Source: Erysipelotrichaceae bacterium RD49
GTDB taxonomy: Bacteria > Bacillota_I > Bacilli_A > Erysipelotrichales > Erysipelotrichaceae
Assembly (NCBI GenBank): GCA_015233825.1
Contig: JADGIS010000009.1
Location: forward strand, 1 to 33,394
Direction of reading: 5' to 3'
Length of the DNA: 33,394 nt
The notes under the pieces are model-generated. The model did not search any database and was not told where the DNA came from. It was given only the letters and a program-made list of their open reading frames with translations. The translations under genes were made by a program, and so were the position numbers. Below are positions 2,265 to 17,010 of this stretch, in pieces (position 1 is the stretch's first letter; each line of letters begins with the position of its first letter).

Positions 2265-3128
2265 TCAATTGACGAGTCCAGAGAGGATTGGTTCATCGAA
2301 ATAGTCTTCAAGGCGGACATTTTCATCCAGCAAGCCAAGTTTTATAAAGGCATGAAACAAGCCATTGTCCAATACAGAATCCGTGACCAGATCAGCAGCT
2401 TCCTTAGCTGCCGGAGCGCCATTGCCCATTGCCACTGCGATATCGGCATGCCGAAACATGGATAAATCATTTTCAGAATCTCCAAAAGCAATTGTCCGAT
2501 ACTGCTGGCCTAAAATCTCTTCGATAATTTGAAACGCCCGTCCTTTGTCATAGGCTTTCTGGGTCATCTCCCCGTTAATCAGCTCATCCTCATCTTGAAA
2601 TGGAAAAGCAGTAAACGCCATTCCTTCCCTTTCCAGCAAATCATCGATGGATCCGGGCAGAATATCCACGAGCGATATTTTCATGCCATCGCCATAGTCT
2701 TCTGCACTCATTTCACTCAAGTCAGGGACACTTGAATAAAAGAACTTCTGACCTTTCTTACGTTGTTCGACTTTCGCAAACAAGTCCCGGCATTTCTGGT
2801 TGGAAAACGTCTTTTGGGATCCTTCAATACAAACACCAACATCAGTGCCTTGAAAATGGTCGATAATCCGGCGCAGCCGGTTTTCTCCAATCGGCTGAAA
2901 GAAAATCCGCTGGCCTTCCAGCCAGATTTCAGTTCCGGCAGAATAGATCTGGCCGCTGAATGGCAGTCCTTCTAAAGAAGGCCAGGCAGAAGAACGGCTG
3001 CGGCCGGTGTTGGCAAAGACCAGATGCCCGTTTTGAACCGCCAGTTTAATCGCAATTAACGCTGAGGCGGGAATTTTTTCATCCCACCATAATGTCTGGT
3101 CTAAATCGAGGCAGATCAGTGATTTCAT
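2265..3128 (-). CDS. HAD-superfamily (Cof/type IIB-like) phosphatase, copy 1
   Basis: This 287-residue protein shows all the HAD phosphatase motifs. Motif I is DLDQT (8-12) with nucleophile Asp8 and acid/base Asp10. Motif II is the Thr in NTGRSRSS. A motif III Lys lies in KISLVD, and motif IV is GDSENDLSMF, which binds Mg2+. It is a paralogue of the next gene upstream on the same strand, with the same DLDxTLWW opening. HAD IIB enzymes dephosphorylate small sugar phosphates or cofactors; the substrate here is unknown. The frame stays open to 3161, but I place the start at 3128 because it aligns with the paralogue's MKS start and AAAGG lies about 10 bases upstream. The gap to the upstream gene is only 71 bp, so the two are probably co-transcribed. 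Confidence 0.88.
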   Translation of the reverse strand: MKSLICLDLDQTLWWDEKIPASALIAIKLAVQNGHLVFANTGRSRSSAWPSLEGLPFSGQIYSAGTEIWLEGQRIFFQPIGENRLRRIIDHFQGTDVGVCIEGSQKTFSNQKCRDLFAKVEQRKKGQKFFYSSVPDLSEMSAEDYGDGMKISLVDILPGSIDDLLEREGMAFTAFPFQDEDELINGEMTQKAYDKGRAFQIIEEILGQQYRTIAFGDSENDLSMFRHADIAVAMGNGAPAAKEAADLVTDSVLDNGLFHAFIKLGLLDENVRLEDYFDEPILSGLVN

Positions 3129-3199
3129 ACGCCCACAGCCTTTCTCATTCGAAATCTTCATTCAGTTCAATCGAAAACACATTTTTGCAAATTCTAAGC

Positions 3200-4048
3200 T
3201 TAACGTTCTTTCCTTGTCCATTCCGGTTCTTTATTGGGATTCAAAAGGCCCAACCGGTCAAATGCTTTATACAGTCCATCATCAAAGATTGTATCCGTGA
3301 TATAATCGGCGGCTGCTTTAACAGGTTCTGTCCCATTGCCCATTGCAATCGCGATATCTGCTGTCTGAAACATCGGCAGATCATTTTCGGAATCACCGAG
3401 TGCAATCGTCTGGTATGGTTCATTCAATAGATCCAAAATCGTTTGAAAAGCAGTGCCTTTGGTTAGATTCTGGTCGGTAATTTCGCCATTGACGTCGCTT
3501 CCTTCTTTAAAGACGCTAAAGGCTGTCATTGTCAACCCTTCCCGTTTTAAAAGATCATCGATCTGGCCTTCTTGCAGACCATGGACCGAAATCTTCATGA
3601 TGTCTGCAAATTCATTCTCTTTGATTTCGCTGATATCCGGCGCATTCATAAAGCTATCCATCCGTGGGGCGCCAATGAGATGCTGGGCTTTCTTTTCAAA
3701 GCGGGCTCTGGCTTTGGCATTGTGAAACAACGTATTGGATCCTTCCAAGGTGATGGCCACATCCCATTGGTTGAGTTGATCCAGGACCCGTCTGGCTCTT
3801 TGAGCGCCAAGCGGCTGGCAGAAAACTGGCTTGCCATGAATCCAGATCTCAGATCCGGCTGAATAAACCTGCCCCGTTAAAGGCAGTCCTTCTAAAGCTT
3901 TTTGGGAACTGCTGCGGCTGCGGCCGGTATTGGAAAAAATGAAATGGCCATTCGCCTGTGCCATCCGTAAAGCTTCCAAAGCTGATTTTGGAACTTTTTC
4001 TCCCCACCATAACGTTCCATCTAAATCTAAAAAAACAACCGATTTCAA
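3200..4048 (-). CDS. HAD-superfamily (Cof/type IIB-like) phosphatase, copy 2
   Basis: This 282-residue protein starts MKSVVFLDLDGTLWW, with canonical motif I DLDGT (8-12), motif II in NTGRSRSS, a motif III Lys in MKISVHG and motif IV GDSENDLPMF. It shares motif order, length and many blocks with the neighbour at 2265-3128 (for example the TGQVYSAGSEIW / SGQIYSAGTEIW region), so the pair arose by tandem duplication. It is the first gene of the likely two-gene unit. The role is dephosphorylation of a small phosphorylated metabolite; the substrate is not predictable. Differences in the cap domain (roughly residues 85-195) would set substrate choice and may mean that the copies have diverged in function. 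Confidence 0.9.
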   Translation of the reverse strand: MKSVVFLDLDGTLWWGEKVPKSALEALRMAQANGHFIFSNTGRSRSSSQKALEGLPLTGQVYSAGSEIWIHGKPVFCQPLGAQRARRVLDQLNQWDVAITLEGSNTLFHNAKARARFEKKAQHLIGAPRMDSFMNAPDISEIKENEFADIMKISVHGLQEGQIDDLLKREGLTMTAFSVFKEGSDVNGEITDQNLTKGTAFQTILDLLNEPYQTIALGDSENDLPMFQTADIAIAMGNGTEPVKAAADYITDTIFDDGLYKAFDRLGLLNPNKEPEWTRKER

Positions 4049-13986: not shown

Positions 13987-14010
13987 TATAATGAAACCGA
14001 ATGTGAGGTG
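13987..14010 (+). promoter_or_regulatory. mgtE operon -10 box, start region and leader Shine-Dalgarno
   Basis: A perfect TATAAT lies at 13987-13992, preceded by a weak -35 region, so transcription should start near 13999. GAGGTG at 14005-14010 is 6 bases upstream of the leader ATG, giving a leader ORF with a short, efficient 5' end. Confidence 0.65.
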
Positions 14011-14016
14011 ACCCCG

Positions 14017-14088
14017 ATGACAAACGATGACCCGGCTCCGGATGTGATTGAACAAACGGGGCAGCCTTTTTTTAGAGATCCTTCATGA
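14017..14088 (+). CDS. Candidate Mg2+-sensing leader peptide of the mgtE operon
   Basis: This is a 23-codon ORF with its own Shine-Dalgarno site (GAGGTG at 14005-14010), ending in TGA 30 bases before the mgtE start. The peptide begins MTNDDPAPDVIEQ and ends PFFRDPS, so three Asp and two Pro fall within residues 4-9. In enterobacteria, MgtL (which begins MEPDPTPLP) senses low Mg2+ because acidic and Pro-rich nascent chains destabilise the ribosome, changing RNA folding and switching on mgtA. The resemblance here is in composition and position, not homology. Inside the ORF lies an intrinsic-terminator-like hairpin with a U7 tract (14034-14073), whose 5' arm overlaps codons 6-8 (Pro-Ala-Pro). 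This is short enough to arise by chance; the promoter, ribosome site, attenuator and Mg2+ transporter context together make the case. Confidence 0.6.
   Translation: MTNDDPAPDVIEQTGQPFFRDPS
14034..14073 (+). terminator. Attenuator-like terminator within the mgtE leader ORF
   Basis: GGCTCC (14034-14039) pairs with GG-C-AGCC (14060-14066) with one bulged C, followed directly by seven T at 14067-14073. A ribosome on codons 6-8 would block the 5' arm. An alternative pairing puts CCCCG (14012-14016) with CGGGG (14057-14061). Confidence 0.55.
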
Positions 14089-14106
14089 TCTTTTCCTTCT
14101 GCCCCG
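14057..14106 (+). promoter_or_regulatory. Alternative hairpin ending at the mgtE Shine-Dalgarno site
   Basis: CGGGGCAG (14057-14064) pairs perfectly with CTGCCCCG (14099-14106), which abuts the AAGGAGG ribosome site at 14107-14113. It uses the same bases as the 3' arm of the attenuator hairpin, so the two are mutually exclusive. Confidence 0.5.
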
Positions 14107-14118
14107 AAGGAGGTTAAG

Positions 14119-15552
14119 ATGAGTGACGTTCAAAATTCTGCACTGCCTGTCAATTCCGGCAGTCAGCAGCGTCCGGATTATGAAAACCAGATTCTCGAGC
14201 TGATCAGTAAAACTATCTCTCCCAAAGCCCTGAGAGATGAGCTCGAAGACTATCATGCCAATGATATAGCGGATGCATTTACCAGACTGGATGATGCCGC
14301 CAGAGAAAAGCTGTTCAAGCTGCTCGATGCGGATCGTCTGGCGGAAATCATCCCCTATTTAGATGCTGATGAACAGGCTGGCTACCTGAATTCCATCAAC
14401 ATCAAAAAGACCCTGGCCATTCTGGCCGAAATGGAGCCGCAGGATGCCGGCCGCATTCTCAAGCGGATTTCCAAGACCCGCCGGGAAGTGATTTTTGAAC
14501 TTCTCGATGCTGAAACCAGACGGAATTTAAAGCGTATTTATGCTTACAGCGACGATGAAATCGGTTCGCAGATGTCGACCGATTTTATCGAAATTCCCCG
14601 CTATTACAATATTAAAGAAACGATGCGCTCACTGCGCGACCAGGCCAGAGAAAGCGATACCGATAACATTTCTCTGGTCTATGTCATTGACGAAAATGGC
14701 TTATATTATGGTGCAATCCGCATTCAGGATTTATTTGCAGCCAGAGCCAATACCAATCTGGAAGATATCATTCAAGTCAACTTCCCGATTGTTTACGCCA
14801 ATGAAACCATTGACTCGTTGATGGAAGATTTAAAGGACTACGATGAAGATTCGATTCCGGTTTTAAACAATGACAACCAGATCGAAGGGATTATTACCAA
14901 GTCAAGACTTCTGCAGTTATTCGATCAGGAAATGAAAGAAGACTATGCCAAGCTGGCTGGTCTTTCGGCGCAGGAAGATTTAAAGGAAACCGTATTTCGT
15001 TCGATTGTCAAACGAACCCCCTGGCTGATCCTGCTTTTATTTTTGTCTTTGCTTGTATCAGCCGTGATCTCGATGTTTGAAAGCGTCGTAGCCAAACTGA
15101 CGGTTGCCGTGGTCTTCCAATCCTTGATTTTGGATATGTCTGGCAATGTCGGCACCCAATCGTTAGCCGTCTCCATACGCGTTTTGGCCGATCCTGAGCT
15201 GACACGCACGCAGCGCTGGAAACTGATGCTGAAGGAAGTTCGGGCGGGTGCAGTCAATGGACTGATTATTGGAACGGGATCGGCTTTGGTGCTGACTTTG
15301 TTTATCCACTTTTTTTCCGGTTATGTCTGGCTGCAGGCCAGCGCAATCGCCCTATGCATCGGTCTGGCGATGGTAACCGCGATGATCATTTCCTCCTTTA
15401 CCGGCACAGCGATTCCAATCGCCCTTTCTGCCTGGGGAATTGATCCGGCAGCCGCTTCCGGTCCATTGATCACCACGCTCAATGACTTGATTGGTGCGAC
15501 TACGTATTACTCCATGATCTGGGTGTTTTTGATCCAGATGCTTCATATTTAG
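14119..15552 (+). CDS. mgtE: Magnesium transporter MgtE, copy 1
   Basis: This 477-residue MgtE-family Mg2+ channel has the expected order. The soluble MgtE N domain (about 25-150) is followed by a CBS pair (about 155-285, including DEDSIPVLNNDNQIEGIITKSRL) and five membrane helices (from about 300). The pore signature is SGPLITTLNDLIGATTYY, whose Asp lines the ion path in family structures. The acidic N and CBS domains bind Mg2+ and close the channel when Mg2+ is plentiful. AAGGAGG lies 5 bases upstream of the ATG, behind the leader ORF described above. Only 12 bases separate its stop from copy 2, so the two form an operon. The N-terminal 20 residues are variable and probably disordered. Confidence 0.95.
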   Translation: MSDVQNSALPVNSGSQQRPDYENQILELISKTISPKALRDELEDYHANDIADAFTRLDDAAREKLFKLLDADRLAEIIPYLDADEQAGYLNSINIKKTLAILAEMEPQDAGRILKRISKTRREVIFELLDAETRRNLKRIYAYSDDEIGSQMSTDFIEIPRYYNIKETMRSLRDQARESDTDNISLVYVIDENGLYYGAIRIQDLFAARANTNLEDIIQVNFPIVYANETIDSLMEDLKDYDEDSIPVLNNDNQIEGIITKSRLLQLFDQEMKEDYAKLAGLSAQEDLKETVFRSIVKRTPWLILLLFLSLLVSAVISMFESVVAKLTVAVVFQSLILDMSGNVGTQSLAVSIRVLADPELTRTQRWKLMLKEVRAGAVNGLIIGTGSALVLTLFIHFFSGYVWLQASAIALCIGLAMVTAMIISSFTGTAIPIALSAWGIDPAAASGPLITTLNDLIGATTYYSMIWVFLIQMLHI

Positions 15553-15564
15553 GAGGACGCATGT

Positions 15565-17010
15565 ATGGACGAAAACAAACCACAGATTGATGAAGAAGTA
15601 GAAGCCAGCACGGAAGAGGTCGTTCATTCCCGTCCTCATTATGAAGAACAGATTTTAAAACTGATCCGTTCCGTCAATTCGCCAAAACTTCTGCGTGAAA
15701 AACTTGATGACTACCATGCTAACGATATTGCCGATGCGTTTGAAAGCCTCAGTCCTCTAGAACGAGAAAAACTCTACAAAATGCTCGACACTGAGCGCTT
15801 AACGGAAATCATCGAGTATATGGATGAAGAAGATCAGGCCCGCTTTTTAAATGAGATGAATATCCGGAAGATCATCGCTATTCTCAATGCGATGGAAACC
15901 GATAAAGCGGCTGATTTGCTTAAAGAATTCGATAAAGAGAAACGTGAAATTGTCCTTGAACTGCTGGAACCGGAAGTGCGCAAGCAGATTTCGGTGATCT
16001 TCTCCTATGATGAAGAAGAAATCGGTTCGAAGATGACCACCAATTATATTGAAGTTGCCAAAGGCGTTTCGGTCCGCCAGGCGATGAAAGATTTAATCGC
16101 CCAGGCTCCTGAAAACGACAACATCACGACAATTTATGTCCGGGATGAAAATGGAATGTATTATGGCGCAGTGAATTTAAAAGATTTGATTATCTCCAGA
16201 GCCGATACGCCGCTCGAAGATATCATTGCAACCAGCTATCCGTATGTGTATGCCAATGAGCCGATTGATAAAGTCGTTGAAGAACTAAAAGATTATAACG
16301 AAGACTCCATTCCTGTTTTGAACAATGACAATCTGCTCCTTGGTGTCATCACTTCCCAGGACTTGCTGGAAGTCATGGACGAAGAAATGGGAGAAGACTA
16401 CGCCAAGCTGGCCGGTCTGGTTGCCGAAGAAGACTTGGAAGAAACGCTCTTCCAATCTTTAAAGAAGCGTCTGCCCTGGCTTTTGGTCTTGCTGGTTTTG
16501 GGCCTGCTGGTCTCGAGCGTCGTTTCCTTGTTTGAAGGCGTTGTCGCCCAGCTGACCATTGTCATGGCTTTCCAGTCCTTGATTTTGGGTATGGCTGGTA
16601 ATGCGGGTACGCAGTCTTTGGCTGTATCGATCCGCGTTTTAATGGATGAATCCCTGACCCGCAAACAAAAGGTCCACTTGATCTGGAAAGAAGTCCGTGT
16701 TGGCTTTGTCAATGGTTTATTGATCGGCGTTGTTTCGTTTGCCCTGCTTGGCTTATATATTCATGTCGTGAAAGCCTACGGCTGGGGCGAATCGTATGCG
16801 ATCTCGCTTTGCATCGGCATTGCCTTGTGGCTGTCCATGATCATCTCTTCCCTGACTGGTACAACAATTCCGTTGTTCTTCAAAAAAGTCGGTGTCGATC
16901 CAGCTGTAGCGAGTGGACCGCTGATCACAACGGTCAACGATATGGTCGGTGTTATCACCTACTATGGATTGGCCTGGATCTTCCTGATCCAGATCCTTCA
17001 TCTGCACTAA
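15565..17010 (+). CDS. mgtE: Magnesium transporter MgtE, copy 2
   Basis: This 481-residue paralogue of the preceding gene has the same domain order: an N domain with DDYHANDIADAF near residue 45, a CBS pair ending DEDSIPVLNNDNLLL-like sequence (NEDSIPVLNNDNLLLGVITSQ), five membrane helices from about 300, and the pore motif SGPLITTVNDMVGVITYY. The acidic head (residues 1-20, rich in Glu) is longer than in copy 1. AGGAGG lies upstream of the ATG. MgtE is a homodimer, and two co-expressed copies could form homo- or heterodimers with different Mg2+ set points; that is inference. A long hairpin follows the stop. Confidence 0.95.
   Translation: MDENKPQIDEEVEASTEEVVHSRPHYEEQILKLIRSVNSPKLLREKLDDYHANDIADAFESLSPLEREKLYKMLDTERLTEIIEYMDEEDQARFLNEMNIRKIIAILNAMETDKAADLLKEFDKEKREIVLELLEPEVRKQISVIFSYDEEEIGSKMTTNYIEVAKGVSVRQAMKDLIAQAPENDNITTIYVRDENGMYYGAVNLKDLIISRADTPLEDIIATSYPYVYANEPIDKVVEELKDYNEDSIPVLNNDNLLLGVITSQDLLEVMDEEMGEDYAKLAGLVAEEDLEETLFQSLKKRLPWLLVLLVLGLLVSSVVSLFEGVVAQLTIVMAFQSLILGMAGNAGTQSLAVSIRVLMDESLTRKQKVHLIWKEVRVGFVNGLLIGVVSFALLGLYIHVVKAYGWGESYAISLCIGIALWLSMIISSLTGTTIPLFFKKVGVDPAVASGPLITTVNDMVGVITYYGLAWIFLIQILHLH

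Follow-up and report, generated by a model that had tools for sequence, protein, structure and literature searches.

The two mgtE genes that stand in tandem in the 33,394-nucleotide stretch of DNA analyzed here (the window) raise the question of what controls them. Relatives and gene content suggest that the host is an Erysipelotrichales-type Firmicute. In Firmicutes, mgtE is known to be controlled by Mg2+ through the M-box (ykoK) riboswitch, RF00380. Using the covariance model of this riboswitch at the 44-bit threshold, we found no match in the leader of this operon. None of the five genus genomes gave an M-box match either (the Bacillus subtilis and Lactococcus lactis controls were positive), nor did 12 genomes from Clostridia, Negativicutes, and Holdemanella that are linked to this one by their mgtE. 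No Rfam family reached its gathering score anywhere in the window, the leader was without a credible match at an E value of ≤10, and neither the enterobacterial Mg_sensor nor any other Rfam leader was matched at gathering score. The initial annotation of this DNA had found no M-box either, and it had proposed that an Asp/Pro-rich leader peptide and its attenuator tie mgtE expression to Mg2+. Our analysis finds this idea largely correct in kind: the mgtE operon is probably governed by a translation-dependent attenuator that is run by the acidic/Pro leader peptide.

A search of 59 relatives recovered M-boxes in 8, and several of these lie immediately upstream of a divergent mgtE. For two mgtE genes with an M-box (leaders L109 in genome G014 and L130 in G033), an acidic-start ORF (MEASVPDRRW and MENAKPGGMETD) also lies between the M-box and mgtE, possibly placing the gene under double control.

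The leader ORF and its conservation within the genus

The elements described in the initial annotation (a TATAAT box, a Shine-Dalgarno [SD] site, a 23-codon ORF, and a U7 run inside this ORF, all before mgtE) were confirmed in the sequence (Table 1). The placement of the TATAAT box implies a very short 5′ untranslated region. A strict scan of the plus strand returned no sigma-70 promoter at the leader (there is no good −35 element, and the −10 box alone is evident), and a short-loop scan of the same strand returned no intrinsic terminator. The short SD-led ORF (uORF) has acidic codons within residues 2 to 5 (D4 and D5 of MTNDDPAP), and these are conserved. The second gene seems to have no leader of its own, as the uORF scan of the gap upstream of mgtE2 found none. 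Elsewhere in the window (positions 2265 to 4048, minus strand), two adjoining ORFs of 298 and 282 amino acids with similar LDLDxTLWW starts resemble a tandem pair of paralogous HAD-type hydrolases.

Table 1. Positions of leader and operon features in the window
Feature	Sequence	Position	Strand	Remarks
−10 box	TATAAT	13987..13992	+	12 nt 5′ of the uORF SD; kept in four genus members
uORF SD	GAGGT	14005-14009	+	
Segment 0 (uORF SD + spacer)	GAGGTGACCCCG	14005..14016	+	5′ arm of predicted OFF stem 0:2
Leader ORF	MTNDDPAPDVIEQTGQPFFRDPS, start MTNDDPAPDVIEQ	14017-14088	+	23 codons + TGA; SD-led; between TATAAT and tandem mgtE
Codons 3-8	NDDPAP	14023..14040	+	Six third positions variable, first/second fixed, in four species
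Segment 1 (codons 7-8)	GCTCCG	14035..14040	+	Alternative predicted partner for segment 2
Segment 2	CGGGGCAGCCTT	14057..14068	+	Shared arm; predicted to pair with 0, 1, or 3
T7 run within leader ORF	T7	14067..14073	+	3′ of stem 0:2; missing in G002 and G004
Hairpin 3:4	TCCTTC-TGCCCC-GAAGGA	14094..14111	+	Predicted to mask the mgtE SD
Segment 3	CTGCCCCG	14099..14106	+	8 bp with segment 2 (stem 2:3); predicted antiterminator/SD-releasing
mgtE SD (segment 4)	AGGAGG	14108..14113	+	mgtE ATG at 14119
mgtE1		14119..15552	+	Mg2+ transporter, MgtE family; Pfam MgtE_N, CBS, MgtE
mgtE2		15565..17010	+	Second MgtE of the operon; Pfam MgtE_N, CBS, MgtE; starts 12 nt past mgtE1

We searched the five genus genomes for the motif AGGTG-N4-10-ATG-x-Asn-Asp-Asp-Pro-Ala-Pro. 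It occurs once per genome and always before mgtE in four of them, which upholds the proposed tie between the acidic/Pro leader and mgtE; in the fifth (G003), the contig begins just upstream of mgtE and is truncated. The comparative set within the genus therefore comprises four sequences, with the leader peptides MTNDDPAPDVIEQ, MLNDDPAPDLVHR, MTNDDPAPLVNCT, and MTNDDPAPVPVTT. Across codons 3 to 8, all six third positions vary among the four species, while none of the 12 first and second positions do. Were six variable sites placed randomly among 18 positions, the chance of this pattern would be 1 in C(18,6), or ∼18,600 (about 5 × 10−5). The pattern indicates that the NDDPAP peptide is under purifying selection. 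The MgtE proteins of the genus are about 65 to 73% identical, and the leaders cannot be aligned upstream of the −10 box, which argues that the shared start reflects selection on the peptide rather than recent divergence. We propose NDDPAP as a candidate ribosome-pausing or -destabilizing motif. Past codon 9, the peptide diverges, and neither its length nor its C-terminal half is conserved. No such uORF was found in G031, a member of the same family whose mgtE is 54% identical. The mgtE genes behind one genus leader (L060, in G001) are broken by frameshifts or stops, which may be sequencing errors or real decay.

Competing helices in the leader RNA

Four helices are predicted to compete in the leader. 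The sequence GGGGCAG (in 14057-14064) is complementary to CTGCCCC (in 14099-14106), and the latter abuts the mgtE SD. Stem 0:2, in which GAGGTgaCCCCG (14005-14016, the uORF SD and spacer) pairs with CGGGGcaGCCTT (14057-14068), adjoins the T run; three genus members have it as their MFE fold, and two pairs in the inner portion of the stem show two-sided changes. Stem 1:2 (GCTCCG with CGGGGC) is predicted in four species at −13.8 to −15.6 kcal/mol, with one two-sided change. Stem 2:3 (CGGGGCAG with CTGCCCCG) has a predicted energy of −20.9 kcal/mol in the window and shows two-sided changes in G004 (e.g., GGGCGGA/TCCGCCC), so that compensatory changes are seen in 0:2, 1:2, and 2:3 across the genus members. 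These pair counts come from hand-checked registers, as a MAFFT alignment of the four leaders put some arms in the wrong place. A hairpin masking the SD of mgtE is predicted in all four members, and stems 1:2 and 3:4, the latter holding the target SD, are mutually exclusive with 2:3, although the sequences are few.

The GGGG(C)AG element persists inside the ORF in a reading frame that differs by species and pairs with TCTGCCC at the mgtE ribosome site. Against the scheme, segments 2 and 3 lie about 300 nt apart in the G001 leader. As segment 2 is kept in shifting reading frames, it is evidently constrained as RNA. The conservation of the ORF, of its Asp/Pro start, and of the competing hairpins, together with the synonymous bias (6/6 versus 0/12), supports the proposal of the initial annotation. 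The folding energy of the leader is mildly better than that of shuffled sequences (z = −1.58). As a sole line of support this z score was too weak to use and was set aside, and, with the weak single-sequence scans, it leaves the case to rest on comparative evidence.

The details of the original hairpin scheme held only in part. Competing stems that share an arm, one of them beside the mgtE SD, are indeed present, but the hairpin that was probably meant as the terminator (GCTCCG:CGGGGC) stands apart from the T run. Similarly, codons 7 and 8 do pair with segment 2 (stem 1:2), but the main OFF stem uses the uORF SD and spacer as its 5′ arm. As for the terminator itself, stem 0:2 abuts T7 in the window, and the run is a possible intrinsic terminator tail; the run is, however, displaced in G001 and lacking in G002 and G004. 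Since two of the four genus members have a weak T run or none, we take the conserved output to be the masking of the mgtE SD by 3:4 and its release by 2:3. Termination may be at most an additional layer on the control of mgtE translation.

Acidic-start leaders before mgtE in other genera

The acidic-start leader is not a one-off, as many genomes of Clostridia and of the Erysipelotrichales type have one upstream of mgtE. SD-led uORFs were found before mgtE in other genera of the same order and in Lachnospiraceae, Ruminococcaceae, Saccharofermentans, Succiniclasticum, and others, which extends leaders of this kind to Clostridia and Negativicutes. Examples are MANGDSHGSDGR, MTNSDSCGSSGR, MDGSDSHERSTG, and MDPSGDSSNSGW, and further uORFs start with MDSHEQ, MEGHEQ, MDNCDSCGP, MDKTDSVPR, or MDDKPGG. 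In an automated scan that applied one rule to every gene, SD-led uORFs were present in 38 (after deduplication) of 67 mgtE gaps versus 9 of 163 control gaps. Residue 5 was Asp or Glu in 28 of the 38 mgtE uORFs and in none of the 9 controls (P = 7 × 10−5 by Fisher's test). A second kind of uORF, with a conserved C-terminal (N/S)(S/N)(E/Q)DHLPPS (e.g., MIVDPLSGGHNGNSEDHLPPSVKFLFK), was observed in the short-type mgtE leaders L065, L066, L067, L069, and L075.

The association with mgtE bears on the nature of the signal. The leader could be an attenuator that depends on translation but responds to a signal different from Mg2+ (such as charged tRNA-Asp or tRNA-Pro, general translation capacity, or ATP), with the control of mgtE being incidental. 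Its anatomy requires just a ribosome slowed at codons 4 to 8, and in Salmonella, mgtM and mgtP read ATP and tRNA-Pro (PMC8092293). However, the wider family keeps an early acidic residue with no single repeated amino acid (MANGDS, MDSHEQ, MTNDDPAP, and MDKTDS), and the leaders track mgtE, being absent from the control genes and from the two corA-family genes of the same genome. We consider such a signal unlikely.

In the Clostridia group, the SD and start codon are kept, spacing changes are in-frame, and 53% of the single-nucleotide differences between codons are synonymous, versus 24% expected. Many of the peptides (MANGDSxGSDGR) are only mildly acidic, unlike typical intrinsic ribosome destabilization (IRD) sequences, and the NGDSxGSDGR subgroup may carry a novel arrest motif that depends on Mg2+. 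A search for the DNA pattern of the Clostridia group in its exact form gave no matches in 392 genomes of the window's own phylum and 3 in 391 genomes of a Clostridia class; one of the three is of the sort expected by chance, and a reversed-pattern control also matched once. These counts suggest that the exact Clostridial motif is group specific.

Codon choice in this group exceeds what the peptide requires. All 26 distinct sequences (leaders L005, L007, and L009 to L047) use AGT for Ser6, while Ser9 is nearly always TCA, and Arg12 is nearly always CGA. In several Clostridia leaders, codons 8 and 9 (GGGTCA) can pair with a TGACC(C/T) that lies in a downstream hairpin loop. The fixed codons, AGT at Ser6 above all, indicate that the Clostridia leaders are under constraint at the RNA level too.

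Such strong nucleotide conservation, along with the conserved long-range pairings, might be expected if the leader were an undescribed Mg2+ riboswitch, i.e., a structured RNA sensor in which the ORF is incidental. A sensor of this type is improbable, given that the Clostridia leaders retain their initiation signals and reading frame with the excess of synonymous differences described above, that codons 3 to 8 change purely at third positions within the genus, and that no Rfam family is matched.

Returning to an attenuator dependent on translation of the uORF, we examined its initiation region as a pairing partner across genera. In a swap test, the 12 nt made up of uORF spacer and start codon were paired with their own downstream region and compared with spacers from other leaders. 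Identical spacers were removed, leaving 46 distinct leaders, and near-identical ones were barred from swaps. The leaders' own pairing was in the top 10% for 22 of the 46 leaders (4.6 expected; P = 7 × 10−11), a test that takes leaders as independent, which their relatedness justifies only partly. Segment 0 of the window ranked at 0.03. Other cases are L005 (spacer TGATGGAACATG with agttccatcac-TTTTTT), L056 (GTGGAATAGATG with ctctgttccacc-TTTTTTT), L010 (TGAATATTAGTG with tgctaatattcat-TTTTT), and L055 (GGTGGTTGCATG with aatgcagccaca). These spacers are quite different in sequence, yet each is complementary to its own downstream arm, which amounts to covariation across genera. A T5 run is present in 37 leaders, and in 13 of these the 3′ arm next to it was in the top 10%; the 0:2 stem of the window likewise lies against its T7. 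A second downstream partner of the 3′ arm was more common than for swapped arms (9/34; P = 0.005), as was a partner inside the ORF (8/34; P = 0.017). Across many genera, then, the uORF spacer and start codon appear to form one arm of a switch whose downstream arm is species specific and often beside a U-run.

The overlap of RNA elements with the ORF also affects how the peptide is viewed. Its conserved N terminus, good SD, and own promoter-like box would suit a small protein acting in trans on MgtE, like MgtR and MgtS, rather than a cis leader; its length and C-terminal half are, however, unconserved, the overlapping RNA elements fall in different frames, and the 23 residues include no evident hydrophobic segment, all of which makes this very improbable. 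A chance ORF, with mgtE under a promoter or M-box only, is very improbable as well, since the commonness of short ORFs and the unimpressive strict promoter, terminator, and fold scans are outweighed by the codon-position pattern, the genus-wide conservation, the failure to detect an M-box, and the controls used in the scan and swap test. The comparisons show a genuine ORF, a constrained peptide, competing pairings, and a link to mgtE.

A proposed ribosome-dependent switch and its relation to known systems

We infer how the ribosome behaves, in which direction control runs, and that Mg2+ is the signal, as follows. By default, when no ribosome is present, the RNA would be OFF, with segment 0 paired to segment 2 and segment 3 masking the mgtE SD (segment 4); in the window, the U7 run after 0:2 may additionally end transcription. 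A ribosome lingering at the start codon and codons 4 to 8 would cover segments 0 and 1 together, so that 2 could pair with 3; the mgtE SD would then be free, and 0:2 could not form. Rapid passage of the ribosome would uncover 0 and 1 and restore the OFF state. At low Mg2+, ribosomes would pause or fall apart on the nascent chain, and more MgtE would be made. The position of NDDPAP is the one that this model calls for. Full drop-off would free segment 0 and favor the OFF state, and the model therefore needs a pause or rapid reinitiation.

The leader suggests that here the ribosome itself may be the magnesium gauge, in place of the usual riboswitch. IRD as an Mg2+ signal is established in enterobacteria, and in the open-licence literature, we found no Gram-positive case of it. 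In the literature found, accounts of leader peptides through which the ribosome senses Mg2+ come from enterobacteria only, and no published description of leader peptide or uORF attenuation of mgtE was found in the open-licence literature. Our best reading from these sequences is a new form of a known mode of control: leader-peptide attenuation of an Mg2+ transporter in Firmicutes, before mgtE and with the uORF initiation region as an arm. For the broader proposition, in which acidic leader peptides replace the M-box before mgtE throughout Firmicutes, the ribosome senses Mg2+, and the uORF initiation region provides a strand of the switch, we regard the chances as even. If true, ribosome stability as an Mg2+ gauge would be a general bacterial solution that apparently evolved independently before mgtE in gut-type Firmicutes in which no M-box is detected, and it would explain the control of MgtE without a riboswitch in many anaerobic Firmicutes. 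The leaders also supply peptides and compensatory mutants with which the idea can be put to a sharp test.

Several known systems resemble parts of this arrangement. In amino acid attenuators (trpL and the ilvB uORF; PMC10272879), the position of the ribosome on the leader ORF likewise selects the hairpin, but the leader described here does not repeat the codons of any single cognate amino acid, and its target is an Mg2+ transporter. The Mycobacterium M-box with uORF2 (PMC12810186) shares a conserved uORF, SD masking, and a Mg2+-related leader; there, however, the M-box senses and controls the uORF, whereas no riboswitch was detected in our leader. The MgtL peptide of Escherichia coli and Salmonella mgtA also has an acidic/Pro N terminus before an Mg2+ importer (PMC11282234 and PMC6460261), and its EPDP motif, similar in kind but not identical to NDDPAP, causes ribosome drop-off at low Mg2+ (PMC11282234). 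The output of MgtL is Rho-dependent termination, in contrast to SD masking and possibly an intrinsic terminator here. The leader is neither a member of the MgtL family by descent nor an M-box.

Among the systems compared, Salmonella mgtQ, a uORF in the mgtC-mgtB intergenic region, offers parallels in both peptide and RNA. Experiments have shown that its Asp2 and Glu5 codons raise MgtB by favoring stem 2:3 (PMC8092293). Both leaders have a short SD-led ORF with early acidic codons and an Mg2+ transporter as the target, and in both, stem 2:3 competes with 1:2 and with a stem 3:4 that masks the target SD. They differ in phylum, in target (mgtQ serves MgtB, a P-type ATPase), and in location (mgtQ is intergenic, whereas here the uORF occupies the 5′ leader of mgtE), and the published mgtQ model includes neither a segment 0, with the uORF SD as an arm, nor a U-run. 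We therefore regard the mgtE leader as analogous to mgtQ and not as a member by descent, and we claim no sequence homology between the two.
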